Below are positions 2,986 through 63,722 of a stretch of DNA of 64,000 nt, piece after piece. The translations under genes and the position numbers were made by a program. Location of the stretch: positions 1 to 64,000 of the forward strand of contig JAHBYK010000005.1 of assembly GCA_019635965.1 (NCBI GenBank), read 5' to 3'. The notes under the pieces are model-generated. The model had not been told where the DNA came from. It saw only the letters and a program-made list of their open reading frames with translations, and did no database searches. Within the stretch, counting starts at the first letter, position 1; each line of letters opens with the position of its first letter. The DNA comes from Parvibaculum sp. GTDB lineage: Bacteria; Pseudomonadota; Alphaproteobacteria; Parvibaculales; Parvibaculaceae.

Positions 2986-3777
2986 ATGTCATCGCTCAAG
3001 GGCAAGGCCGCCATCGTCACGGGCTCCGCCACCGGCCTCGGCGCCGCCGTCGCGCTGCAACTCGCGGACAAGGGCTGCAACGTCGTCATCAACTATACGA
3101 AGAGCGAGAAGGAAGCGAAGGAAACGCTCGCCGCCTGTCAGGCGAAGGGCGTCGAGGCGATCCTCGCCCAGGGCGATGTCGGCGAGGATGCCGATTGCCG
3201 CCGCATCGTCGATGAGACGGTGAAGAAATGGGGCCGCGTCGATGTGCTGGTCAACAATGCGGGCGGCACGAAATTCGCCAATCATGCCGAGCTTGACGAG
3301 CTGAACGCCGAAGACTTCCTCTGGATCTACAAGGTCAATGTCGTCGGCGCCTATCAGATGATCCGCGCCTGCGCGCCGCATATGCGCGAGGCGGGCAAGG
3401 GCTCGGTCGTGAATGTGTCGTCCATCGCCGGCGTCACCGGCATCGGCTCCTCGGTCGCCTATGCCGCGTCGAAAGGCGCGCTCAACACCATGACGCTTTC
3501 GCTCGCCCGCTCGCTCGCGCCGAAGATCCGCGTCAATGCTGTCTGCCCCGGCTTCATCGGCACGCGCTGGTTCTCCGACCGTTTCGGTCAGCAGACCTTC
3601 GAGGGCATCAAGCGCCAGCAGGAACAGTCGACGCCGCTCGGCCGCGCCGGTACGCCGGAAGACATCGCCACCGCCGTCGTTTTCTTCTGCGGCGAAGGTT
3701 CCGATCACATCACCGGCGAAACGCTCATCACCGATGCGGGAATGCATCTCGGCTTCGCCCCGCTGACGGCGCGCTGA
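2986..3777 (+). CDS. Short-chain dehydrogenase/reductase (3-oxoacyl-ACP reductase-like)
   Basis: This is a 263-residue SDR. Cofactor binding is TGSATGLG near residue 12, the structural motif NNAG is near residue 90, the catalytic Ser is in VNVSSIAG and the Tyr/Lys pair is in YAASK. The C-terminal GRAGTPEDIATAVVFFCG and ITGETLITDAGMHL are typical of FabG-like tetrameric SDRs. GGGGAGAACACC precedes the ATG. It is not close to fatty-acid synthesis genes, so a catabolic ketoreductase is as likely as FabG. Confidence 0.92.
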   Translation: MSSLKGKAAIVTGSATGLGAAVALQLADKGCNVVINYTKSEKEAKETLAACQAKGVEAILAQGDVGEDADCRRIVDETVKKWGRVDVLVNNAGGTKFANHAELDELNAEDFLWIYKVNVVGAYQMIRACAPHMREAGKGSVVNVSSIAGVTGIGSSVAYAASKGALNTMTLSLARSLAPKIRVNAVCPGFIGTRWFSDRFGQQTFEGIKRQQEQSTPLGRAGTPEDIATAVVFFCGEGSDHITGETLITDAGMHLGFAPLTAR

Positions 3778-4811: not shown

Positions 4812-6068
4812 ATGACCGATGCCGCCGCCCTGAAACGCGAGGTCTGCAACGCGATCGACGCGATGTCGGGTGAACTTCTCGCCATCAGCCACGAGATTCA
4901 TGCCAAGCCGGAACTTGCCTTCCACGAGCATGAAGCGGTCCGCATCCTCACCGCCGCGCTCGACCGCGCGGACCTTCCCGTCACGCGCGGCGCCTTCGGC
5001 CTTCCCACCGCCTATGCCTCGAGCTTCGGCAACAAGGGCGCCGAAGTCGCCATCCTCTCCGAATATGACGCACTGCCCGGCATCGGCCATGCCTGCGGCC
5101 ACAACATCATTGCGACGACGGGCCTCGGCGCCGCGCTCGCGCTGGCGAAGCTCGGGGGCCGCCTTCCCGGCCGCGTCCGCTATCTCGGCACGCCCGCTGA
5201 GGAGCAAGGCGGCGGCAAGGAACTCATGGCCCAGGAAGGCGCCTTCGACCGTCTCGACGCCGCCATGATGGTTCATCCCGCAGGCGTCGATCTCGTCACC
5301 ATGCCCTGCATCTGCGTTTCGGAAGTCGCCGTCACCTATCACGGCCGCTCGGCACATGCCTCCGCCATGCCGCATATGGGATTGAACGCGCTCGATGCGC
5401 TCATCACCGCCTATCAGGCGATTGCGCAGCTCCGCCAGCACATCCGTCCGACAGAGCGTATCCACGGCATCATCAAAAAGGGCGGCATGGCGCCCAACAT
5501 CGTGCCGGACGAAACCATGGCGCTCTTCTATGTCCGCGCCGCCAATGCCGAAGATCTCGCGCCGCTGAAGAAGCGCGTCCAGGCCTGCTTCGAGGCGGGC
5601 GCGCTGGCAAGCGGCTGCACTGCGGAAATCAAATGGGCGAAAGCCGATTATCTCGACCTCAAGACCAGCATGCCGCTGGCGAACGCCTATGAGGCGAACG
5701 CGAAATCTCTCGGCCGCGATTTCTTCCCCCTGTCGAAAATGCCGGCGGGTTCGTCGGGCAGCACCGACATGGGCAATATCAGCCACCGCGTGCCCTCGAT
5801 CCATCCGATGATCGCCTCCGCCCCGCCCCATGTCGTGATCCACAACCCGGAATTTGCGCGATGGGCGGCGTCCGATCTCGGCGACAAGGCCTGCATCGAC
5901 GGCGCCAAGGCGCTCGCCATGACGGCAATCGACTTCATGACGGATGAAGGAATGCGCGCGCAGGCAAAGGCCGATTTCGCGGCCACGGCGGAAGCCTCCG
6001 CCCGCTCCGTCGCCGCCGCCTACGACCCGAACGGCCTCGCCCATATCGGCGGCTGCGGCTGCTCGTAG
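4812..6068 (+). CDS. M20 family metallo-amidohydrolase (AbgB/HipO-like)
   Basis: This 418-residue protein is predicted to hydrolyse amide bonds of N-acyl amino acids or amino-benzoyl-glutamate-type substrates with two metal ions. Visible metal and catalytic motifs are GHACGHN near residue 98, GTPAEEQGGGK, and DAAMMVHPAG. A dimerisation domain begins at VTYHGRSAHASAMPHMG, and the last metal-binding His region is the C-terminal part with PSIHPMI. The start ATG follows GGGGAGAGAG. The C terminus HIGGCGCS ends in an unusual Gly/Cys-rich tail. It is divergent from the hydrolase at 3934-4683 across about 130 bases. Confidence 0.92.
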   Translation: MTDAAALKREVCNAIDAMSGELLAISHEIHAKPELAFHEHEAVRILTAALDRADLPVTRGAFGLPTAYASSFGNKGAEVAILSEYDALPGIGHACGHNIIATTGLGAALALAKLGGRLPGRVRYLGTPAEEQGGGKELMAQEGAFDRLDAAMMVHPAGVDLVTMPCICVSEVAVTYHGRSAHASAMPHMGLNALDALITAYQAIAQLRQHIRPTERIHGIIKKGGMAPNIVPDETMALFYVRAANAEDLAPLKKRVQACFEAGALASGCTAEIKWAKADYLDLKTSMPLANAYEANAKSLGRDFFPLSKMPAGSSGSTDMGNISHRVPSIHPMIASAPPHVVIHNPEFARWAASDLGDKACIDGAKALAMTAIDFMTDEGMRAQAKADFAATAEASARSVAAAYDPNGLAHIGGCGCS

Positions 6069-7421: not shown

Positions 7422-8837
7422 TTACGGCAGGTTCGGCAGCCGCTCCGTCTGTTCCACTTCCTCGACGAAGCGTTCGTCGAGCTTGCGGCGCAGTTCCTCC
7501 TGCTCCCTGAGCCCGATGGGGAACTTCCACATGATGAGCGCGACGATCCCGTTGCAGATCATCGGCGTCGCCACAAAGACGATGGAAAGCCCGGTCAGCG
7601 TCGCCGGTGAATTTTCGCCCTGCGGGTCGAAGCCGATCAGCGCCAGCGTCCAGAACACGACGCCGACGGCAAAGGCCCCGCCGAGCTTCTGCGTCAGCGT
7701 GAGCAGCGCATAGAAAAGCCCCGTCCGCCGCTGCCCGGTTTCCAGCTCGTCGATATCGGCCACATCCGCCATGATCGAGCGGTAGAGCGTCGTTGTCGTG
7801 CCGACATTCACCCCGAGGAACAGCAGCACCAGTGCCGCGATGTAGTAGTTCCCCTCGGGAATGAGAAAGATGACGGGCGGGAAGACCACATTGAACAGCC
7901 CCGCCATCACCACCGTCATGTGCTTGCCGAAGCGGTAGGAGAGCTTCAGCACCACCGGAATGAAGATGATGCCGCCGAAGAAATAGAGCAGCAGCAGGAA
8001 ACTTGCGACCGAGCCGATTCCCCACACATAGGTCGCCTCGTAGATATACATCGAGGCAAGCGCCGCGCCCGCGAAGCCCGACAGGAAATCCGCCGCGAGC
8101 AGCCGCCGCAGCGGCACATTGCGCAGGATCGCCTTCACCGCCGCACCAAGCTGCACCGGCGGCTGCGGCTTCGCCTTGCGCTCCGGCACGAAGAGAATGT
8201 TGATGCCGACCGCGATGGGCAGCGTGATGACGATGAACCAGCCGATGGCGGCCACGCGCGCCGACTCCATGTTGTCGGCGCCGATCTGTTCGATGATCGC
8301 CGGAATCAGCAGCACCAGCGGCACGCCGAGAAGCTGGAACGCCTCGCGGTAGCCCTGGATGCGCGAGCGTTCATTGTAGTTCTCGCTCAGCTCCGCCGCC
8401 CATGCCATGTGCGAAATGGTCAGCATGGTCCAGCCGATATAGAGGAAGAACATCCAGCCGATGAGATAGAGGCTCGACACCGGCGCCGTCGGCACGAACA
8501 CCATATAGGCGCAGCCCATCAGCAGGGGCACGGAGAGCACGAGCCAGTGCCGCCGCCGGCCCCAGCGCGAGGGATACTTGTCGGACAGCACGCCCATCAT
8601 CGGATCGGTGACGACGTCCCAAAGCCGCGCCAGCATGAAGATCGTGCCGACAGCGGCAAGCCCGAGCCCCATCGGCCCCGCATAGAATTGCGGCAGATAG
8701 ACGCCGATCGGCAGCCCCAGCGCGGCGATGGGAATGGCGGGGCCTGAAAAGGCGGAAAGCCGCCAGCCGGAAAGCCGTCCGCCATTTCCCGCGGCATTGT
8801 TCGCGGAACTGTCCGAAGAAGTCATTTGTCCTGCCAT
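7422..8837 (-). CDS. GPH-family (glycoside-pentoside-hexuronide) MFS permease 1
   Basis: This 471-residue membrane protein has about 12 hydrophobic segments. The first-loop signature is ARLWDVVTDPMMGVLSDKYPSRWGRRRHW, given here in parts as WDVVTDPMMG, LSDKY and WGRRRHW. It is typical of cation:sugar symporters related to MelB and XynP and of related transporters of other small solutes. The C-terminal half starts after a short basic loop (PERKAKPQPPVQLG). It is the last gene of a minus-strand series after the hydrolase (49-base gap) and a second permease of the same family. The substrate is unknown. Confidence 0.92.
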   Translation of the reverse strand: MAGQMTSSDSSANNAAGNGGRLSGWRLSAFSGPAIPIAALGLPIGVYLPQFYAGPMGLGLAAVGTIFMLARLWDVVTDPMMGVLSDKYPSRWGRRRHWLVLSVPLLMGCAYMVFVPTAPVSSLYLIGWMFFLYIGWTMLTISHMAWAAELSENYNERSRIQGYREAFQLLGVPLVLLIPAIIEQIGADNMESARVAAIGWFIVITLPIAVGINILFVPERKAKPQPPVQLGAAVKAILRNVPLRRLLAADFLSGFAGAALASMYIYEATYVWGIGSVASFLLLLYFFGGIIFIPVVLKLSYRFGKHMTVVMAGLFNVVFPPVIFLIPEGNYYIAALVLLFLGVNVGTTTTLYRSIMADVADIDELETGQRRTGLFYALLTLTQKLGGAFAVGVVFWTLALIGFDPQGENSPATLTGLSIVFVATPMICNGIVALIMWKFPIGLREQEELRRKLDERFVEEVEQTERLPNLP

Positions 8838-14300: not shown

Positions 14301-15517
14301 TGCTCGAAGGAAAGCCGGTCGATGACATCCGCCATCACATCGTCGGGAATGCGCACCTTCTCGAGCAGCGGTGTACGCAGCGCATCGAAGAGCCCGCCAT
14401 TATAGGGGGGCAGACCGATCGAGGCGTCGCCCTTGTCGATCGCGCGGGACAGATCCTGAATGGCGCCCCAGTAGCGTGATGCCGATGTCGAGAAAACATC
14501 CCCCTTGTCCTTCCGCCGTCCGACATCGCCGCGTACGCGCTCTCGCAGGCCGTAATCGTCATAGCGGCTTTCGCGGACCGGCAGCAGGTCGCGGTCTTCC
14601 GCATAGAGAAGGAAAAGCAGCCGATAAAGCAGAACCAGAGCCGCGTTCCGGACTTCATCGAGCGGTGCTGAAGGCTCCGATTTCGCGATAGCCCGGACAA
14701 GCTCGGGGAACACCTGCTCGAATACGAGCGAGGACAGGCTTTCCGCCACCCGCTGTTCGTAAAAACGGCCTTCATCGATCGCGCGCTGATGGAAGCTGCG
14801 CTTGTCCGATGGCCTTGGAACAAACGATTCCCTGCCGAAAACCAGCATGAAGACGCGCAGGGCATGGCGCTTCTCATCCTCGTCCAGCGAGAACAGCCCA
14901 TCGCCGATACCATCGAGACCGAGAACGGCGGCAAGGTCGATTTCGAAGAACTGCTCGGAAACGGAGCGGGCGCCCTGATAATAGAGACGCCATGTCGCGC
15001 CATTGGTCAGGATGCCCCAGCGGAGCCCGCCGGTCGTTAGGTCGTCGACACGTCGCAGATAGCGGAGCATCTGCGTCGAAGGTGCAAGCTCCTCTCCGAG
15101 CTTGCCAGAACGCCTGTCGAGCGGGCGCCGCCAGCGTTTCGACTCCACCAGCGCCAGCCCGTGCTCGTACCTCTTCCATTGTTCAGGGTGGGCATTCGCC
15201 CTTTCCTTGGCACTGTCATCCTCGAAGAGAATGCCGTCGGGCACGTCGTCCCTGCCCTTTGCCGCAAGATTCTGCTGCCGTAGCGTTGCGGTCCATCCGA
15301 GCCGTTTTAGAACGGGCCAGATCAGGTCGTCTTCGGTCTGGCTTTCGTTTGTCGCCTTGTCCTGGGGGAAGCGGGAAAATATGGCATCAATATCCGCCCG
15401 AAAGGCGTCCACCTCAGTGCCGCTGATGGCATTCCATTCAGGCAAGGTGCGGATCGCTTCGCCCAGAAAATCGAGCGAAAACAGACTGCCCCTGAATACT
15501 ATTCCCTTATCGGCCAC
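11357..15517 (-). CDS. Single-chain restriction-modification enzyme (type IIG-like, N6-adenine methylase)
   Basis: This protein of about 1386 residues has an N-terminal nuclease-like part: DVPDGILFEDD followed by LALVESKRW near residue 123, a plausible PD-(D/E)xK site. The methylase core has motif I ICDPAMGSGHFLV near residue 514 and motif IV GNPPWDRM near residue 835, typical of N6-adenine methylases of the Eco57I/PglX type. The C-terminal part, presumed to recognise DNA, has lower GC in places (about 11760-12140 and 12500-12700). The GTG start at 15517 has AGGGGAAGG just upstream; a TTG at 15538 is the alternative. No separate specificity subunit or BREX genes flank it. Confidence 0.85.
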   Translation of the reverse strand: MADKGIVFRGSLFSLDFLGEAIRTLPEWNAISGTEVDAFRADIDAIFSRFPQDKATNESQTEDDLIWPVLKRLGWTATLRQQNLAAKGRDDVPDGILFEDDSAKERANAHPEQWKRYEHGLALVESKRWRRPLDRRSGKLGEELAPSTQMLRYLRRVDDLTTGGLRWGILTNGATWRLYYQGARSVSEQFFEIDLAAVLGLDGIGDGLFSLDEDEKRHALRVFMLVFGRESFVPRPSDKRSFHQRAIDEGRFYEQRVAESLSSLVFEQVFPELVRAIAKSEPSAPLDEVRNAALVLLYRLLFLLYAEDRDLLPVRESRYDDYGLRERVRGDVGRRKDKGDVFSTSASRYWGAIQDLSRAIDKGDASIGLPPYNGGLFDALRTPLLEKVRIPDDVMADVIDRLSFEQTKDGRKYINYRDLSVQQLGSIYERLLEHEVRREGDEITIRPNIFARKGSGSYYTPDDLVRLIINETLQPLIDERMDAFRGKAAELAKDKRPAEYRLGALKQIDPAEKLLELRICDPAMGSGHFLVSLVDYLTDNVIAAMAEAETAVEWAADDMPYISPLGERIEKIRQTILHNAEEKGWTVDAAQLDDRHIVRRMVLKRCVYGVDKNQMAVELAKVSLWLHTFTVGAPLSFLDHHLRCGDSLFGSWVRPAMDKLADWGSGLLLHGTLTKARTAAASMQTIEGLTDAEIAEAHRSADIFEGIVEVTRPLDTLLSMVHAIEWLGIKDKADMAAIQEWLKEGFGDVVAVATGRKKIVIPPAPPPLSEIEKAKQAKQKKKSYSPHEIATRFSEICSKARELIEEERFLNWQVAFPGVWSDWESGERKGGFDAVIGNPPWDRMKLQEVEWFAVRRREIALAQRADDRKKMIKKLEKAKDPLAADYEKASARAEAGARVARDGGDYPLLSGGDVNLYSLFVERALALVKPKGVVGLLTPSGIASDKTASAFFKGVATGGRLKALYDFENKKVFFPDVHASFKFCVMVVSPARPFDKAICAFYVHHVSELGDPERCFPVTAADFARVNPNTGTAPIFRTRRDAALTTAIYGRLPVLVDRSGGEERKTWPVRYVRMFDMTNDSGLFRTRQELEEKEGAWPAGGNRWKSKKGEWLPLYVGRMIHQFDHRAASVVVNEENLHNAALSDSVSEEQKRDTIFSPTPQFWIAGEHVEYPPKLHWVICFRDIARATDARTMIASAVPKVGLGNTAPAFWPEEVSEYQLQGGLWLSNLNALIFDFVVRQKAQSTHLNWYIVEQLPVVPPDTYEKVKFGKKTAGELVREAVLELTYTAHDMAPFARDMGHVDGKGEVLPPFTWDEERRLKLRAKLDAIYFNLYGITDRDDIRYIYSTFPIVEREEMEAYGSFRSRDLCLAWMNALKAGDTEAEIGI

Positions 15518-15971
15518 GCCTTCCCCTTCGAATCGCAATTTTCAGCCCTCCAAACTAGCCAGTCGGGACACCCAATGCATCCCTTCGGCAGGCTGGTTCG
15601 ATTCCGACCCAAAAAACCGGGGATAAGTTTTTTTCGTCTCTCTGCGGCTCTGCGCCTCTGCGTGCCCTTCCTGCATCGCGCGAATGACGCGCCGGACGGG
15701 GCGGGTGCCATGCGGCCAATCGATCAGCCTACGGATGATATGAAGTCCACGCCTGAGCGGGGCATGCCGGAGGCGGCGCGCGGGCCTCATGACAGAATGA
15801 TGACATTCCGGTGACAGAATTTCGGGCCGGAGGCCGCTCCCAATGAAATCAAGGGCTTGGCACCCGGCGCACTCGTAACGGTACCGGAACGGATTTGCCG
15901 CCGCGCCCCCTTGCCCTTGAGCGCCCGCCCCTCTAGTTTCGCCCCATCCCCGGAGCGATGGAGTTGTGAAT
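15518..15971. other. Intergenic region without a convincing gene
   Basis: This 454-base stretch lies between the divergent restriction-modification and zinc-finger genes. It holds a pyrimidine-rich tract around 15628-15665 with repeated CTCTGCG units. The 9-base direct repeat TGACAGAAT occurs near 15789 and 15811, with a TGACATTCC between. No open frame here has family features or a good ribosome site. It presumably contains the promoters of both flanking genes. Confidence 0.6.
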
Positions 15972-41684: not shown

Positions 41685-42773
41685 TCAGGCGCTCGCCTCC
41701 AGATCGCCATCCTCGACCTCGTCGGGATTGACCTCATCCAGAATCTTCTCGGCAAGGAGACCGGCGTTCTGGCGGATCGCCGCCTCGATCTCGTTCGCCA
41801 TGTCGGGGTTCTCCCGCAGGAACTGCTTGGCGTTCTCACGCCCCTGCCCGATCCGCTGGCTGTTATAGGAGAACCAGGAGCCCGACTTCTCGACGATACC
41901 CGCCTTGACGCCAAGATCGACGAGCTCACCCATCTTGGAAATGCCCTCGCCATACATGATGTCGAACTCAACCTGTTTGAAGGGCGGCGCAACCTTGTTC
42001 TTGACGACCTTGACGCGGGTCTGGTTGCCGACAACCTCTTCGCGCTCCTTGATCGAGCCGATGCGGCGGATGTCGAGCCGGACGGACGCATAGAATTTCA
42101 GCGCATTACCGCCCGTCGTCGTTTCCGGGCTGCCGAACATGACGCCGATCTTCATGCGGATCTGGTTGATGAAGATCACCATGGTGTTCGACTTGGAAAT
42201 CGAGGCGGTGAGCTTGCGGAGCGCCTGGCTCATCAGCCGTGCCTGAAGACCGGGCAGGCTGTCGCCCATCTCGCCTTCGAGTTCGGCCTTGGGGGTAAGC
42301 GCGGCGACCGAGTCGATCACCAGCACGTCGACAGCACCGGAGCGCACCAGCGTGTCCGCAATTTCGAGCGCCTGCTCGCCCGTATCGGGCTGCGAGATCA
42401 GCAGATCGTCGAGCTGCACACCGAGCTTGCGTGCATAGACAGGGTCGAGGGCGTGTTCGGCATCGACGAAGCCGCAAATGCCACCCTTCTTCTGCGCCTC
42501 GGCAATGGTCTGGAGAGCCAGAGTGGTCTTGCCCGAGGATTCGGGACCATAAATTTCGACGATGCGGCCGCGGGGCAACCCGCCAATGCCGAGCGCAATG
42601 TCGAGGCCGAGCGAGCCCGTCGAAACCGCCTCGATTTCCACCACCTGCTCGTTCTTGCCGAGCCGCATGATGGAACCCTTGCCGAACGACCGCTCGATCT
42701 GGCTCAAGGCGGCGTCCAGCGCCTTTTTCTTGTCGGAATCGTCTTTCACGAGGCTCACTACGTTCTTGGACAT
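41685..42773 (-). CDS. recA: Recombinase RecA
   Basis: This 362-residue DNA recombinase has the Walker [10 protein letters not shown] near residue 67, the Walker [11 protein letters not shown], and the signature [14 protein letters not shown]. The acidic C terminus ends with [14 protein letters not shown] 42773 is chosen because AAGGGGAGAACGGT precedes it. An SOS-box-like site lies upstream at 42835-42849. Confidence 0.98.
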
Positions 42774-42834
42774 ACCGTTCTCCCCTTTAACCATCGCCCG
42801 CCGAGTCGCGCAATGCGCGTGTGATGGCTAGAAA

Positions 42835-57083: not shown

Positions 57084-57818
57084 ATGGAAAACGCCCTTCT
57101 CATAGGTCTCTCGCGCCAGATGGCGATGGCCCGCGATATGGCGACGATCGCGAACAACATCGCGAACGTGAACACGACCGCGTTCAAGTCGGAAACGATG
57201 ATGTTCGAGCAATATCTGAAGACCGACGCGTCGGAACTGAGCCCCGACAAGCGCATCACCTTCGTTCAGGACGTTGGCCAGTACCGCAATATGCGCGACG
57301 GCGCGCTGCAGACCACAGGCAATCCTTTCGATGTCGCCATCACAGGCGAAGGCTTTTTCCGCATCGAAACGGCAAACGGCGTCCGCTACACGCGCAACGG
57401 GAATTTCTACCTCAACAATGAAGGCCAGCTCGTCACCTCCGCCGGCGACTTCGTGCTGACGGATGCCGGTGCGCCCATCGCGTTCGCGCGCGACGAAACG
57501 GGCATCACCATCGCACGCGATGGAACGATCTCTACCGATCAGGGCCGCCGCGGCCGCCTCGCCATCGTCACCTTCGGAAACCCGCAGGACATGAAGAAGG
57601 CGGGCGACTCGCTCTTCGAGACCGCGCAGCAGGAAGTCCCCGCGCAGAATATCCGTCTCGTTCAGGGTGCGCTCGAAGGATCGAACGTCAATCCGATCCT
57701 CGAAATGACCAACATGATCGAAGTCACGCGCTCCTATGCCAGCGCGCAGAAACTCATCGACCAGGCAGACCAGATGCGCCGTCAGGCCATTCAGCAACTT
57801 GGCACACCCGCGGCCTGA
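57084..57818 (+). CDS. flgF: Flagellar basal-body rod protein FlgF
   Basis: This 244-residue proximal rod protein has the N-terminal rod motif LSRQMAMARDMATIANNIANVNT, here in parts, the D1 domain with VAITGEGFFRIETANGVRYT and the C-terminal MIEVTRSYASAQKLIDQADQ. It heads flgF-flgG-flgA-flgH. Confidence 0.96.
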   Translation: MENALLIGLSRQMAMARDMATIANNIANVNTTAFKSETMMFEQYLKTDASELSPDKRITFVQDVGQYRNMRDGALQTTGNPFDVAITGEGFFRIETANGVRYTRNGNFYLNNEGQLVTSAGDFVLTDAGAPIAFARDETGITIARDGTISTDQGRRGRLAIVTFGNPQDMKKAGDSLFETAQQEVPAQNIRLVQGALEGSNVNPILEMTNMIEVTRSYASAQKLIDQADQMRRQAIQQLGTPAA

Positions 57819-57858
57819 CGCCCGGCGCGCCCGAAACGCAGAGTAAGGAAGTACGCAA

Positions 57859-58644
57859 ATGCAGTCGCTCAGCATCGCCGCCACAGGCATGATGGCCCAG
57901 CAGCTCAATGTCGAGGTGATTTCCAACAACATCGCCAACATGAGCACATCGGGCTTCAAGCGCCAGCGCGCCGAATTCCAGGACCTGCTCTACCAGAACC
58001 TGCGCCGCGTCGGCACCAATTCATCCGATGCCGGCACCATCGTTCCCGCCGGTGTGCAGGTCGGCCTCGGCGTCAAGACCGCCGCCGTCAATCGCATCAT
58101 GACACAGGGCAATCTCGACAACACCGAGAACAAGCTCGACATAGCGATTCAGGGCCGGGGCTATTTCCGCGTCGAACTGCCGAGCGGCGAGGATGCCTAT
58201 ACCCGTGCCGGCTCCTTCCAGATCAGCGCCGATGGACAGCTCGTCACGGCGGATGGCTACACGCTTGCCCCCGGCATCAACATTCCGCCGGAAGCGATCG
58301 ACGTCACCATCAGCCGCGATGGTCAGGTACAGGTCACGCTTCAGGGTGAGACCGCCTCGCAGGTCGTGGGCCAGATCGAACTTGCGACCTTTGCAAATGA
58401 TGCCGGCCTCGACCCTCTCGGCAACAATCTTTTCACCGAAACCACTGCGAGCGGCGCTCCCACCATCGGCACTCCCGCCAATGATGGCGTGGGCAGCGTT
58501 CTTCAGGGCTTTCTCGAAACCTCGAACGTGAATGCGGTCAGCGAAATCACGACCCTCATCACGGCCCAGCGCGCCTACGAAATGAATGCCAAGGTCATCA
58601 CCGCGTCCGACGAGATGATGTCCGTTACCACGAATATTAAGTAA
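57859..58644 (+). CDS. flgG: Flagellar distal rod protein FlgG
   Basis: This 261-residue axial protein has SLSIAATGMMAQQLNVEVIS-NNIANMSTSGFKRQRAE at the N terminus, GYFRVELPSGEDAYTRAGSF in the middle and the C-terminal ITAQRAYEMNAKVITASDEM. The 18-residue N-terminal segment distinguishing FlgG from FlgF is present. It lies 40 bases after flgF. Confidence 0.97.
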   Translation: MQSLSIAATGMMAQQLNVEVISNNIANMSTSGFKRQRAEFQDLLYQNLRRVGTNSSDAGTIVPAGVQVGLGVKTAAVNRIMTQGNLDNTENKLDIAIQGRGYFRVELPSGEDAYTRAGSFQISADGQLVTADGYTLAPGINIPPEAIDVTISRDGQVQVTLQGETASQVVGQIELATFANDAGLDPLGNNLFTETTASGAPTIGTPANDGVGSVLQGFLETSNVNAVSEITTLITAQRAYEMNAKVITASDEMMSVTTNIK

Positions 58645-58656
58645 GCGGTGATCGCC

Positions 58657-59646
58657 ATGATGACACGCACCTTCAGCCGCTTCGCCGCCATCGCTGCCTT
58701 CGTGCTTGCCGCGAGCGCCGCACATGCGGCCGAACTCCGATCCGTCGTTACTGTCTCCGGAGAGACGGTCACGCTCGGGGACATTTTCGACAATGCCGGC
58801 AAGGCCGCCAATGTCGTCGTCGCCAATGCCCCCGCGCCGGGACTTCGGAGCGAAATCTCCATCTCGCGCATTTCGCTGGCCGCTCGCCGAAACGGCATCG
58901 AGTGGCGCAACGATGCGGGCCTCAGCCACATCGTCGTCGCCCGTAGCGGCGTTGCCGTGCCGGATGAAGAAGTTGCTTCTGTGATCGCCGGCGCCATCGG
59001 CGCGCAATCGACAGGCCTTCCCTCCTCCTCGCAGCTTCAGATCGACTTCACCAATGGAACTGCTGGCGTCCAGGTCGCCGGCGATGCGGAGATTTCGGTC
59101 AGCGTCGAACAGATTGCATTCAACCGCCGCAATGGCAATTTCACGGCCATCCTGCGCGCCCCGGCTGGCGATATGCTGAGCCCGGCACACCGCGTGACGG
59201 GCCGCGCCTATCCCGTCACCGATGTGCCCGTTCTCAACCGCGACATGCGTCCCGGCGATACTGTGCGCCATACCGATATCGACTGGATCCGCGTGCCCGC
59301 GAGCCGCGTCGGCCAGAACGTCATCACATCGCTCGATCAGCTTCTCGGCATGTCGCCTCGCTATCAGGCGCGCGCTGGCGAGCCGCTGCGCCTCGCCGAT
59401 ATGGTCCCGCCCCTCGTCGTCCAGAAAGGTGCGCAGGTCGACATGCTGCTCACTTCGGGTGCACTCACGCTGATCGCACGCGGCCGGGCGCTCGAGAATG
59501 GCGCCGTCGGCGACGTCATCAACGTTCTCAACACGCGTTCGAACCGAACATTGCGTGGCGTTGTGGACGGTCCCAACAGCGTCCGCATCGACACGCCGGG
59601 CAGCGCCCGCGCCGTATCTGCAACAACGCAATCGAACAATTCGTAA
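58657..59646 (+). CDS. flgA: Flagellar P-ring chaperone FlgA
   Basis: This 329-residue protein has a signal peptide (FAAIAAFVLAASAAHAA) and the SAF-like C-terminal domain with VPVLNRDMRPGDTVRHTDID, seen about residue 195. It helps FlgI assemble the P ring in the periplasm. The start may be ATG 58657 or 58660. It lies 12 bases after flgG. Confidence 0.93.
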   Translation: MMTRTFSRFAAIAAFVLAASAAHAAELRSVVTVSGETVTLGDIFDNAGKAANVVVANAPAPGLRSEISISRISLAARRNGIEWRNDAGLSHIVVARSGVAVPDEEVASVIAGAIGAQSTGLPSSSQLQIDFTNGTAGVQVAGDAEISVSVEQIAFNRRNGNFTAILRAPAGDMLSPAHRVTGRAYPVTDVPVLNRDMRPGDTVRHTDIDWIRVPASRVGQNVITSLDQLLGMSPRYQARAGEPLRLADMVPPLVVQKGAQVDMLLTSGALTLIARGRALENGAVGDVINVLNTRSNRTLRGVVDGPNSVRIDTPGSARAVSATTQSNNS

Positions 59647-59691
59647 CGGAACCGCCTGGCCCCAGGAGCCAGCACCGGAAAGGTAAAGTCA

Positions 59692-60429
59692 ATGTTTGCC
59701 GGAAATGTTTCCCGCCTTGCCGCCATCGTCCTTCTTGCCACAACGCTTGGTGCCTGCAATGCGCCTGGCCGCCTTTCGAATATCGGAAAGGCGCCGGATC
59801 TCGCACCGATCGGGACGGCAGCGCCCGCCGTCTCCATGCGCATGCCGCAGCCCGAAGAGGTCGTCTATCAGCCGAACTCCCTGTGGCGCTCCGGCTCCCG
59901 CGCCTTCTTCCGCGACCAGCGCGCGGCGCGCGTCGGCGACATTCTGACCGTGAACATCAACATCACGGACAGCGCCAAGGTGAATAATTCGACGAAGCGC
60001 AGCCGCTCCAGCGCCGAAAGTGCCGGCGTGAACAACCTGCTCGGCTACGAATCCTATCTCGGCAAGGTCTTCCCCGACGCTGTCGACAAGTCAAATCTCG
60101 CCGATCTCGGCGCCACAAGCTCCAATAGCGGCGCGGGTTCCGTTGACCGCCGCGAGCAAATCGACCTCACCATCGCTGCCGTCGTGACTGATGTACTGCC
60201 AAACGGCAATCTCGTCATTGCGGGCCGCCAGCAGGTGCGTGTGAACTACGAGGTGCGCGATCTCCTCATCACGGGCATCGTCCGGCCCGAGGACATCAGC
60301 AACGTCAATACGATCCAGCATTCGCAGATTGCCGAAGCCCGCATCTCATATGGCGGCGAAGGACAGATCACCGATGTGCAGCAGCCGCGCTACGGCCAGC
60401 AGCTTCTCGACATCGTGATGCCCTTCTGA
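59692..60429 (+). CDS. flgH: Flagellar L-ring protein FlgH
   Basis: This 245-residue outer-membrane lipoprotein has lipobox LGAC near residue 20. SLWRSGSRAFFRDQRAARVGDILTVNI, seen in parts, and VRVNYEVRDLLITGIVRPED are family hallmarks. AAAGGTAAAGTCA precedes the ATG. A strong terminator follows. Confidence 0.97.
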   Translation: MFAGNVSRLAAIVLLATTLGACNAPGRLSNIGKAPDLAPIGTAAPAVSMRMPQPEEVVYQPNSLWRSGSRAFFRDQRAARVGDILTVNINITDSAKVNNSTKRSRSSAESAGVNNLLGYESYLGKVFPDAVDKSNLADLGATSSNSGAGSVDRREQIDLTIAAVVTDVLPNGNLVIAGRQQVRVNYEVRDLLITGIVRPEDISNVNTIQHSQIAEARISYGGEGQITDVQQPRYGQQLLDIVMPF

Positions 60430-60450
60430 CGATCGGCACGGCAGAAACGA

Positions 60451-60482
60451 AAAACGCGGCTCCGAAAGAGCCGCGTTTTTTG
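60451..60482. terminator. Terminator after flgH (and dksA)
   Basis: AAAACGCGGCTC-cgaaa-GAGCCGCGTTTT is a perfect 12-base stem with a T tract on one strand and an A tract on the other. It serves both convergent genes. Confidence 0.92.
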
Positions 60483-60506
60483 TTTACCGGTCATCAAACC
60501 TTGCGA

Positions 60507-60870
60507 TCAGTCGTCCCGATAGACCTTCTCGCGCCGCTCGTGACGTTCCTGCGCCTCGATCGACAGCGTGGCGATGGGCCGCGCGTCGAGGCGCTTGAGG
60601 CTGATCGGCTCGCCCGTCTCCTCGCAATAGCCGTATGTCCCCTCGTCGATCCGGCGGATCGCCGCGTCGATCTTCGCGATCAGCTTGCGCTGACGGTCGC
60701 GGGTGCGGAGTTCGAGGGAGCGTTCGGTTTCGGAGGAGGCACGGTCGGCAAGATCGGGATGCTGAACCGAGTCGTCCTGCAGATGCTGCAGTGTCTCGCG
60801 GTTCTCGATCAGGATGTCCTCTTTCCACTTCGAGCTTGCGGCGGAAATATTCCTTCTGCCGCTTGTTCAT
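60507..60870 (-). pseudogene. dksA: DksA/TraR-type transcription factor gene with frameshift
   Basis: Codons 1-13 (60870 down to 60832) read MNKRQKEYFRRKL, the alphaproteobacterial DksA start. After four bases (60831-60828) the family sequence continues in another frame from TGG at 60827 to TGA at 60509-60507: WKEDILIENRE, then ASSETERSLELRTRDRQRKL, IRRIDEGTYGYCEETGEP, ARPIATLSIEAQERHERR and EKVYRDD. Family members have two residues where these four bases stand, so two bases are missing or one is extra. No start codon opens the second frame. The finger keeps only its first Cys, as usual in this clade. It is a real frameshift, recoding or a sequencing error. Confidence 0.85.
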
Positions 60871-61082
60871 GAACGGTTTCGTCGTCTGATGGCATCAGTA
60901 GCCCTTTGGGCAAACGCACGGCCATTTAGGCAATCTCGACACAAACCTTCGCCGAAGCGCGCGGAGTATAGGGAGCGGCTTCACGATTCTCAACCGGCCA
61001 TCTCTGGCCAAGCCTGTGAAATATTTGTGGAAATTGCCGAATATCAAGGGCGGGAAAACGGCGGCCCGGAACAGGCCGAAAC

Positions 61083-61517
61083 CTAGACTTTAGTATAGGT
61101 GCCGAACTTCGCCAGCTCCACCCGTGCCCTGAGCTCGATCTGGTCGAGAACATCCTTCAGGCGGGGGTCGCTGAATGCCGCCTGCTGGCGCTCGACCACG
61201 GAAAGAAGGCGCGAGAGCTTGGATTTGGGCAGTTGCCCGGCCAGAAGCGCCAGCTTGATTTCGTCCAGAATATCCAGCATCTCCTCGGCACGGCGGATCG
61301 CCTGGCGTTTCGGCGCATGGAGAGCGTCGTCCGCTGCCGGGGTCTCCTGAAGCGCCAGAAGCGCATCGACCGCCGCCAGCGATGCCGGCCCGGATAGCCC
61401 TGCCGCTCCGCGTGCTGCGGGAGCGCCGCCCAGCGAAAAGCTGCCGCTGCCGCTCCGCGCCGGTGTGGCGCGTGCCGGTCCTGTCTGCGAAGCCGATCTG
61501 CTTTCCCCGATCTTCAT
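61083..61517 (-). CDS. fliX: Flagellar assembly regulator FliX
   Basis: This 144-residue protein has an N-terminal MKIGESRS, a Gly/Ala-rich linker and the conserved C-terminal helical part with RRAEEMLDILDEIKLALLAG and DPRLKDVLDQIELRARVELA. In Caulobacter FliX controls the sigma-54 activator FlbD and couples basal-body assembly to late flagellar transcription. ATG 61517 is chosen because GGAGACGGCC precedes it; the frame extends to 61670 without family match. It is divergent from flgI, as in Caulobacter. Confidence 0.9.
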   Translation of the reverse strand: MKIGESRSASQTGPARATPARSGSGSFSLGGAPAARGAAGLSGPASLAAVDALLALQETPAADDALHAPKRQAIRRAEEMLDILDEIKLALLAGQLPKSKLSRLLSVVERQQAAFSDPRLKDVLDQIELRARVELAKFGTYTKV

Positions 61518-61579
61518 GGCCGTCTCCGGTCGGATTCCAGGCTGGAATTCCTCAATATCTCCAAAATGAACCTGAGGTC

Positions 61580-61594
61580 TTAATGCCCCGTTAA
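61580..61594. promoter_or_regulatory. CtrA-type box upstream of fliX
   Basis: TTAATGCCCCGTTAA fits TTAA-N7-TTAA exactly and lies 62 bases before the fliX start. Caulobacter fliX is a CtrA-controlled gene. Confidence 0.7.
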
Positions 61595-61731
61595 GCCTGT
61601 TGCCGGGCCGGGCAGCATTTGCCGGGAGGCGGCATCTTCTGCTCCCCTGAGGCAATGCTCGCGCCTTCACGCGCCGCGAAGAAACACAATAAAATCAATA
61701 TCTTGAATTATATTCCTCGCATCTTTCTGCA

Positions 61732-61747
61732 TGGCACGGCTTTCGCA
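61732..61747 (+). promoter_or_regulatory. Sigma-54 promoter of flgI
   Basis: TGGCACG-GCTT-TCGCA matches TGGCACG-N4-TTGCA with one mismatch; GG and GC are exactly 10 bases apart. It lies 39 bases before ATG 61787, which supports that start. Confidence 0.85.
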
Positions 61748-61786
61748 AACAAAGGCCTGTATCGCAAGCGATTGAGTGGTCGATCC

Positions 61787-62938
61787 ATGCCCCGTTTGAT
61801 GTCCTGGCTATCCCTGTCCCGCCCCGCGGTTCTGCTGCTGGCGCTTTTTGCTGTCTGCGCCCTGGCGCCGCTGACGGCCGAAAAAGCCGAGGCAAGCTCG
61901 CGCATCAAGGACATCGTCGATGTCGAGGGCATTCGCGACAACATGCTGGTCGGATATGGCCTCGTCGTCGGCCTGAACGGCACGGGCGACACGCTCCGCA
62001 ACGCTCCCTTCACCCAGCAGAGCCTGATCGGCATGCTCGAACGCCTCGGCGTGAACACGCGCGGAACCACGCTGAAGACCGCCAATGTCGCCGCCGTCAT
62101 GGTGTCGGCCAACCTGCCCGCCTTCGCCACCCAGGGCACGCGCATTGATGTCACCGTGAGCGCCCTCGGCGATGCCTCGAACCTTCAGGGCGGCGTCCTT
62201 CTCGTCACGCCGCTGATGGGTGCGGACGGCGAGGTCTATGCGGTGGCTCAAGGGCCCCTGGCAACCGGCGGCTTTGCAGCTGTCGGCGAAGCAGCCTCAG
62301 TCACACGCGGCGTGCCGACCAATGCCCGCATTGCCAACGGCGCCATCGTGGAGCGTGAACTCGACTTCCGCCTCGCGGATCTGCGTACCCTGCGTCTTTC
62401 GCTCCGCAATCCGGACCTGACGACGGCCCAGCGCGTCGCCGGCGCGATCAACACCTTCCTCGGCGCGAATACCGCTATCGCCGACAATCCGACGACCGTC
62501 CAGCTCAACGTGCCGGCCGGCTGGCGGGGCGGCGTCGTCGGCCTTCTCACCGACATCGAGCAGCTTCGCGTCCAGCCCGATCTCGCCGCCAAGGTGGTCA
62601 TCGACGAAGCCTCCGGCGTCATCGTCATGGGTCAGGATGTGCGAATCAGCAAGGTCGCCATCGCCCAGGGCAACCTCACAATCTCGATCAGCGAATCGCC
62701 GCAGGTAAGCCAGCCATCGCCCTTTTCGACGCAGGGCAACACTGTGGTCGTGCCTCGCACCAATGTCGACGTAAATGAGGAAGAAGGCCGCCAGCTTGGC
62801 ATTATCGACGGCAGCATCAGCCTCGCCCAGCTAGTCGACGGCCTCAATGCGCTCGGCGTCAGCCCGCGCGACATGATCACCATTCTTCAGGCGATCAAGG
62901 CCTCCGGCGCACTGCAGGCCGAAATCGAGGTGATGTGA
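61787..62938 (+). CDS. flgI: Flagellar P-ring protein FlgI
   Basis: This 383-residue periplasmic ring protein has a signal peptide (LLLALFAVCALAPLTAEKAEA) and the family start RIKDIVDVEGIRDNMLVGYG, then GLVVGLNGTGDT. The end DMITILQAIKASGALQAEIEVM is typical. ATG 61787 is chosen over the longer frame to 61619 because the sigma-54 promoter lies between. It overlaps flgJ. Confidence 0.96.
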   Translation: MPRLMSWLSLSRPAVLLLALFAVCALAPLTAEKAEASSRIKDIVDVEGIRDNMLVGYGLVVGLNGTGDTLRNAPFTQQSLIGMLERLGVNTRGTTLKTANVAAVMVSANLPAFATQGTRIDVTVSALGDASNLQGGVLLVTPLMGADGEVYAVAQGPLATGGFAAVGEAASVTRGVPTNARIANGAIVERELDFRLADLRTLRLSLRNPDLTTAQRVAGAINTFLGANTAIADNPTTVQLNVPAGWRGGVVGLLTDIEQLRVQPDLAAKVVIDEASGVIVMGQDVRISKVAIAQGNLTISISESPQVSQPSPFSTQGNTVVVPRTNVDVNEEEGRQLGIIDGSISLAQLVDGLNALGVSPRDMITILQAIKASGALQAEIEVM

Positions 62939-63252
62939 TGGAAGCCCTGTCCGCCCTCGCTGCCTACATGCCGGCCGCCACGGTCAAACCGGCTCCAACA
63001 GCGCATGGCGCGCGCGATCCGCGCGCCTGGGAGGCGGCGAAGGATTTCGAGGCACAGTTCACGGCGACGCTGTTCCAGTCCATGTTCGATGGCATGGAGC
63101 AGGAAAATCCCTTCGGCGGCGGCCCCGGCGAAACCATGTTCCGCTCCCTCTTGGTGGACCAATATGGCCGCGAGGTCGCCAAGGCTGGCGGCATCGGCAT
63201 CGCTGACGACATCTACCGCGAAATTCTCAAGCTTCAGGAGGCCGCCCGATGA
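62938..63252 (+). CDS. flgJ: Rod-binding protein FlgJ (N-terminal domain only)
   Basis: This 104-residue protein has the rod-binding domain: AAKDFEAQFTATLFQSMFDGM and ETMFRSLLVDQYGREVAKAGGIGIAD, seen in parts. It lacks the muramidase domain of enterobacterial FlgJ, as usual in alphaproteobacteria. Its ATG overlaps the flgI stop by one base and its end overlaps the next gene by four. Confidence 0.93.
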   Translation: MEALSALAAYMPAATVKPAPTAHGARDPRAWEAAKDFEAQFTATLFQSMFDGMEQENPFGGGPGETMFRSLLVDQYGREVAKAGGIGIADDIYREILKLQEAAR

Positions 63253-63722
63253 GCGATATGCGCCGTACACCCGCCGAGGCGCTCGCTCCGGCTGACCTCG
63301 TCGATCGCATGATCGGCCTGACGATCGAACTGGGCGCCATCATCGCACGCGAAACCGAGGCGCTACGCAGTCGCAACCGCGAGGAACTGGCTGATCTCCA
63401 GCCGGAAAAGATCCGCCTCGCCAATGAATATGCGCTCGATGTCCAGTCCGTGCAGATCCGCAAGGAACTCATCGACCGCGCACCGGCCGACCGCGTCGCC
63501 CGGCTCAAGGCTGGCATGGTCGAACTCGACCGCCTCCTCATCCTCAATGGCGAGGCACTTGCCGCTGCCCGTTCGGTCTCCGAGGGCCTCATCCGCATGG
63601 TCGCCAACGCCATGAGCGAAAAGGCCGCACCGGCCCTAGGCTACGGTGCCAATGCTGCTGCCCCGCGCCGCCCCGCCACTGTCGCGGGCAGTGGCTCGCT
63701 GACACTCGATGCCCGCGTCTGA
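63249..63722 (+). CDS. FlgN/FlbY-like flagellar protein
   Basis: This 157-residue protein is mostly helical, with LVDRMIGLTIELGAIIARETEALRSRN near residue 17 (seen in parts), LADLQPEKIRLANEY and a low-complexity C terminus. The size, position and helical pattern resemble the FlgN export chaperone and Caulobacter FlbY; identity is not certain. It overlaps flgJ by four bases. Confidence 0.7.
   Translation: MSDMRRTPAEALAPADLVDRMIGLTIELGAIIARETEALRSRNREELADLQPEKIRLANEYALDVQSVQIRKELIDRAPADRVARLKAGMVELDRLLILNGEALAAARSVSEGLIRMVANAMSEKAAPALGYGANAAAPRRPATVAGSGSLTLDARV

Follow-up and report, generated by a model that had tools for sequence, protein, structure and literature searches.

A dksA gene split over three frames in a Parvibaculum draft genome is very probably an artefact of local consensus error

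Introduction

The window analysed here, that is, the whole stretch of 64,000 nucleotides from contig JAHBYK010000005.1 of a Parvibaculum sp. draft genome (GCA_019635965.1), carries on its minus strand a dksA gene that cannot be read in one frame. This raises the question of whether the organism has lost DksA, joins the frames by ribosomal slippage, or keeps an ordinary gene that was damaged in the assembly. A sequence-only reading of the window had described a single frameshift after codon 13 and had named a very recent event, programmed slippage and an assembly error as possible causes. We compared the locus with dksA in relatives and the draft genome with a close relative.

Results

Re-reading of the minus-strand letters confirmed the arrangement that had been reported. 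A piece translated as MNKRQKEYFRRKL in frame 2 of 3 (60832..60870, by translation and alignment with relatives) is followed by the four bases GAAG (60831-60828) and then, in another frame, by a DksA body in frame 3 of 3 (60507..60827, 106 codons and a stop, by translation and by profile and structure matches). The body, with WKEDILIENRETL at its front, reads WKEDIL...EKVYRDD* without any internal stop, and its coiled coil, DxxDxA tip and globular domain are intact. That it lacks a start codon was also borne out, as the window ORF list contains no ATG-, GTG- or TTG-started ORF of at least 40 residues ending at its stop. The gene sits within a flagellar gene cluster (57084-63722, gene names assigned by eye) and is convergent with a flgH-like gene (59692-60429, also named by eye).

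The body scored 133.2 bits against TIGR02420 (cut-off 115.5), and a chance match to DksA can be dismissed because of the E value of 4.6e-39. It also matched PF21157 and PF01258 in the profile search, and residues 1-101, nearly the whole body, could be aligned with the E. coli DksA structure 1tjl. The coiled-coil tip motif is present as DLADRA when the translation is inspected by eye. The C4 zinc finger pattern (CxxC-17-CxxC) was found neither in the window nor in the genus relatives, which both have CEET...SIEA at this place. The C4 zinc finger is not required for DksA function (PMC9239242), and the DksA of the genus, with one cysteine left in its finger region, resembles DksA proteins that work without it.

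The start of the gene is likely to lie at 60925, upstream of the ATG at 60870, judging from alignment of the predicted translations. DksA of the genus relatives has 138 residues and begins with MAVRLPKGYMPSDDEPF-MNKRQKEYFRRKLEKWKEDIL... (in the alignment, MAVRLPKGYMPSDDEPF-MNKRQKEYF...), and its start aligns to the window ATG at 60925-60923. When a 138-aa relative was used as a tblastn query, its residues 1-15 were located at 60925-60878 with 87.5% identity, and the probable true N terminus of the window protein, supported by both tblastn and alignment, is MAVRLPKGLLMPSDDE in frame 1 of 3 (60878..60925, minus strand). The ATG at 60870 corresponds to an internal methionine codon in the relatives, being preceded by 17 residues in 15/15 aligned relatives, and the 128-residue product read straight on from it gave no family match in profile searches. 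Translations, alignment and tblastn agree that the window dksA is split over three frame pieces, with no uninterrupted frame that has a start codon; we judge this split to be an assembly error.

Comparison with two close relatives, G002 and G011, revealed four non-triplet length changes in the first ~100 coding bases: +1 near 60905, +2 near 60896, +1 near 60877 and -2 near 60830. In addition, about 5 bases are lost near 60937, at the purine-rich ribosome-binding region. It is evident from the alignment that these changes (about -5, +1, +2, +1, -2) make up an indel-dense patch on the minus strand at 60830..60940, and that its edges are abrupt: against G002 and G011, no length change was found in the remaining gene or in ~120 bp upstream. 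A conserved promoter-side segment (60955..61040, minus strand) is free of indels up to the patch. Likewise, a terminator-like hairpin with a T run 3' of dksA (60447..60479, minus strand), recognised by eye in the downstream comparison, is intact and kept in both relatives. The break near 60830 described by the sequence-only reading is therefore real, whereas its account as a single frameshift missed three more indels, the ~5-base loss and the start at 60925. The proposal that the gene would be repaired by bases at 60828-60831 was too narrow, because the upstream indels, too, come between the true start and the body. As a side observation, contig 47 of another relative, G021 (L004), starts at its base 1 inside dksA, ~30 coding bases 3' of where the patch lies. 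This may mean that the 5' end of dksA resists assembly, or it may be a coincidence.

The frame of dksA is kept throughout its relatives. Of 109 homologues, drawn from the genus, from other alphaproteobacteria and from public genomes, with one genome per species in the comparison set, 108 have the full-length gene in a single frame, and the last is truncated where its contig stops. A zf-dskA_traR gene is present in 26/27 genus genomes. These data bear on programmed ribosomal frameshifting or slippage, by which the frames would be joined into a full DksA. As such a mechanism would need, the frame of the body is both open and conserved, but a frame change conserved among homologues was not found, since 108/108 complete homologues need no frameshift. 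Moreover, translation from the true start at 60925 would have to change frame twice or more, and inspection of the alignment by eye showed no slippery run where the pieces join. Programmed slippage, which had been offered as one cause of the break, is thus contradicted and is scarcely credible.

Of the differences in the body between the window and each of G002 and G011, 29 are synonymous and 1 is nonsynonymous; all 13 codons of the N-terminal MNKRQKEYFRRKL piece are identical to those of both relatives. This excess of synonymous changes and the identity of the N-terminal codons give no indication of relaxed selection. Amino-acid changes have not accumulated through the gene as in a pseudogene, and an old pseudogene is disfavoured. 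On the other hand, several indels may genuinely and very recently have destroyed dksA in this strain or population, so that it would now be a young pseudogene. The letters stand as assembled, and neither the second full dksA that had been proposed as a search target nor any other dksA/TraR-family gene was found in this draft, which is 75% complete. Against a recent loss, the pieces around the five independent indels contain no more than one substitution that alters an amino acid. A pseudogene that had had time to gather five indels would be expected to carry point changes as well, and the changes would be expected gene-wide, not limited to 110 bp. We consider this loss very unlikely.

The draft consists of 116 contigs, with an estimated contamination of 1.8%. 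Strain mixture is common in such draft genomes, and the assembly could be a mixture in which one strain has a frameshifted dksA allele, in keeping with its fragmentation and estimated contamination. However, variants of a conserved gene between strains would be expected to be mainly synonymous rather than five clustered indels, and such a mixture is so improbable as to be nearly negligible here.

To see the patch in the context of the whole draft, ~1.15 Mb of it was sampled against sampled G002 stretches; ~359 kb were aligned, covering 263 genes and 275 kb of coding sequence, with 84.8% identity in the sampled stretches. The patch screens required third-position bias, as a plain screen for frame changes was swamped by opposite-strand ORFs. 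A second patch lies on contig 57 (L223, about 15100-15600), where 12 indels in ~475 bp break two neighbouring genes, miaB at its 3' end and phoH at its 5' end; the 1007 bp that precede the patch and the 933 bp that follow it have no indel. A third one interrupts an amidohydrolase gene on contig 37 (L207, about 5235-5575): 10 indels fall within ~325 bp, and the preceding 360 bp and the following 1074 bp are free of them; the amidohydrolase on either side of this patch has 120 and 358 clean residues, with 91-92% identity to G002. The G002 orthologues of miaB, phoH and the amidohydrolase gene are all open. The signature at dksA recurs elsewhere in the assembly, in conserved loci unrelated to it. 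The dksA patch consists almost purely of indels, whereas the other two include some substitutions, and we count this difference against an artefact.

Some other candidates were rejected. Those on contig 37 near 3057-3126 and on contig 34 near 445-660 fall upstream of likely gene starts, and those on contigs 95 (L144) and 70 (L139) are intergenic or antisense. Many other screened clusters, not each of which was inspected, look like alignment noise in divergent segments, with high substitution or compensating indels. Separately, contig 130 of the G011 draft (L037, about 7820-8500) shows 17 non-triplet length differences over ~680 bp from the window ORF at 41688-42794, for which no non-triplet length differences are listed against G002; the G011 draft may hold a similar indel patch.

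Discussion

It is very probable, from comparison of the letters with those of relatives, that the break in dksA is an artefact of a local consensus error and not a loss of DksA, slippage or a pseudogene. We infer that the assembly has poor-consensus patches because three unrelated conserved gene sets are broken alike and with sharp edges. An assembly error, which the sequence-only reading had listed among the causes, is now strongly supported by the clustering of five length changes within ~110 bp and by at least two more patches, while its suggestion of DksA loss finds no support. The like patches in miaB/phoH and the amidohydrolase gene also argue against a recent loss. That a real lineage has just lost its only dksA via an indel burst, with wider localised bursts having also struck miaB and phoH, is highly improbable.

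In the case of a consensus error, the ~110-bp contig stretch at about 60830-60940 would have a consensus of poor quality, into which several false insertions and deletions were introduced. It may have originated when a gap between short-read contigs was bridged by uncorrected long-read or very low-coverage sequence. The organism, and the living population from which the draft came, would then very probably keep an ordinary, in-frame DksA of 138 residues at this place in the flagellar gene cluster.

The window dksA should not go on record as a DksA loss. Moreover, the draft has scattered short indel-rich patches, so that single frameshifts in it need to be checked for neighbouring indels before interpretation.

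Compared with alphaproteobacterial DksA (TIGR02420 with PF21157 and PF01258), an RNA polymerase-binding transcription factor, the window body is alike in its full match and its DLADRA tip. The two differ in that the 138-residue protein of genus relatives is intact whereas the window copy is split, and the globular domain of the window protein has one cysteine in contrast to the C4 finger. With regard to the patch, published benchmarking found that hybrid assemblies built from short reads first 'often had clusters of errors', both inside and outside repeats, and that indels made up 91% of all assembly errors, in large excess over substitutions (PMC8442456). Those error clusters and the window patch are both local, dominated by indels and truncate predicted proteins, a likeness by signature only to the errors of short-read-first hybrid assembly (PMC8442456).
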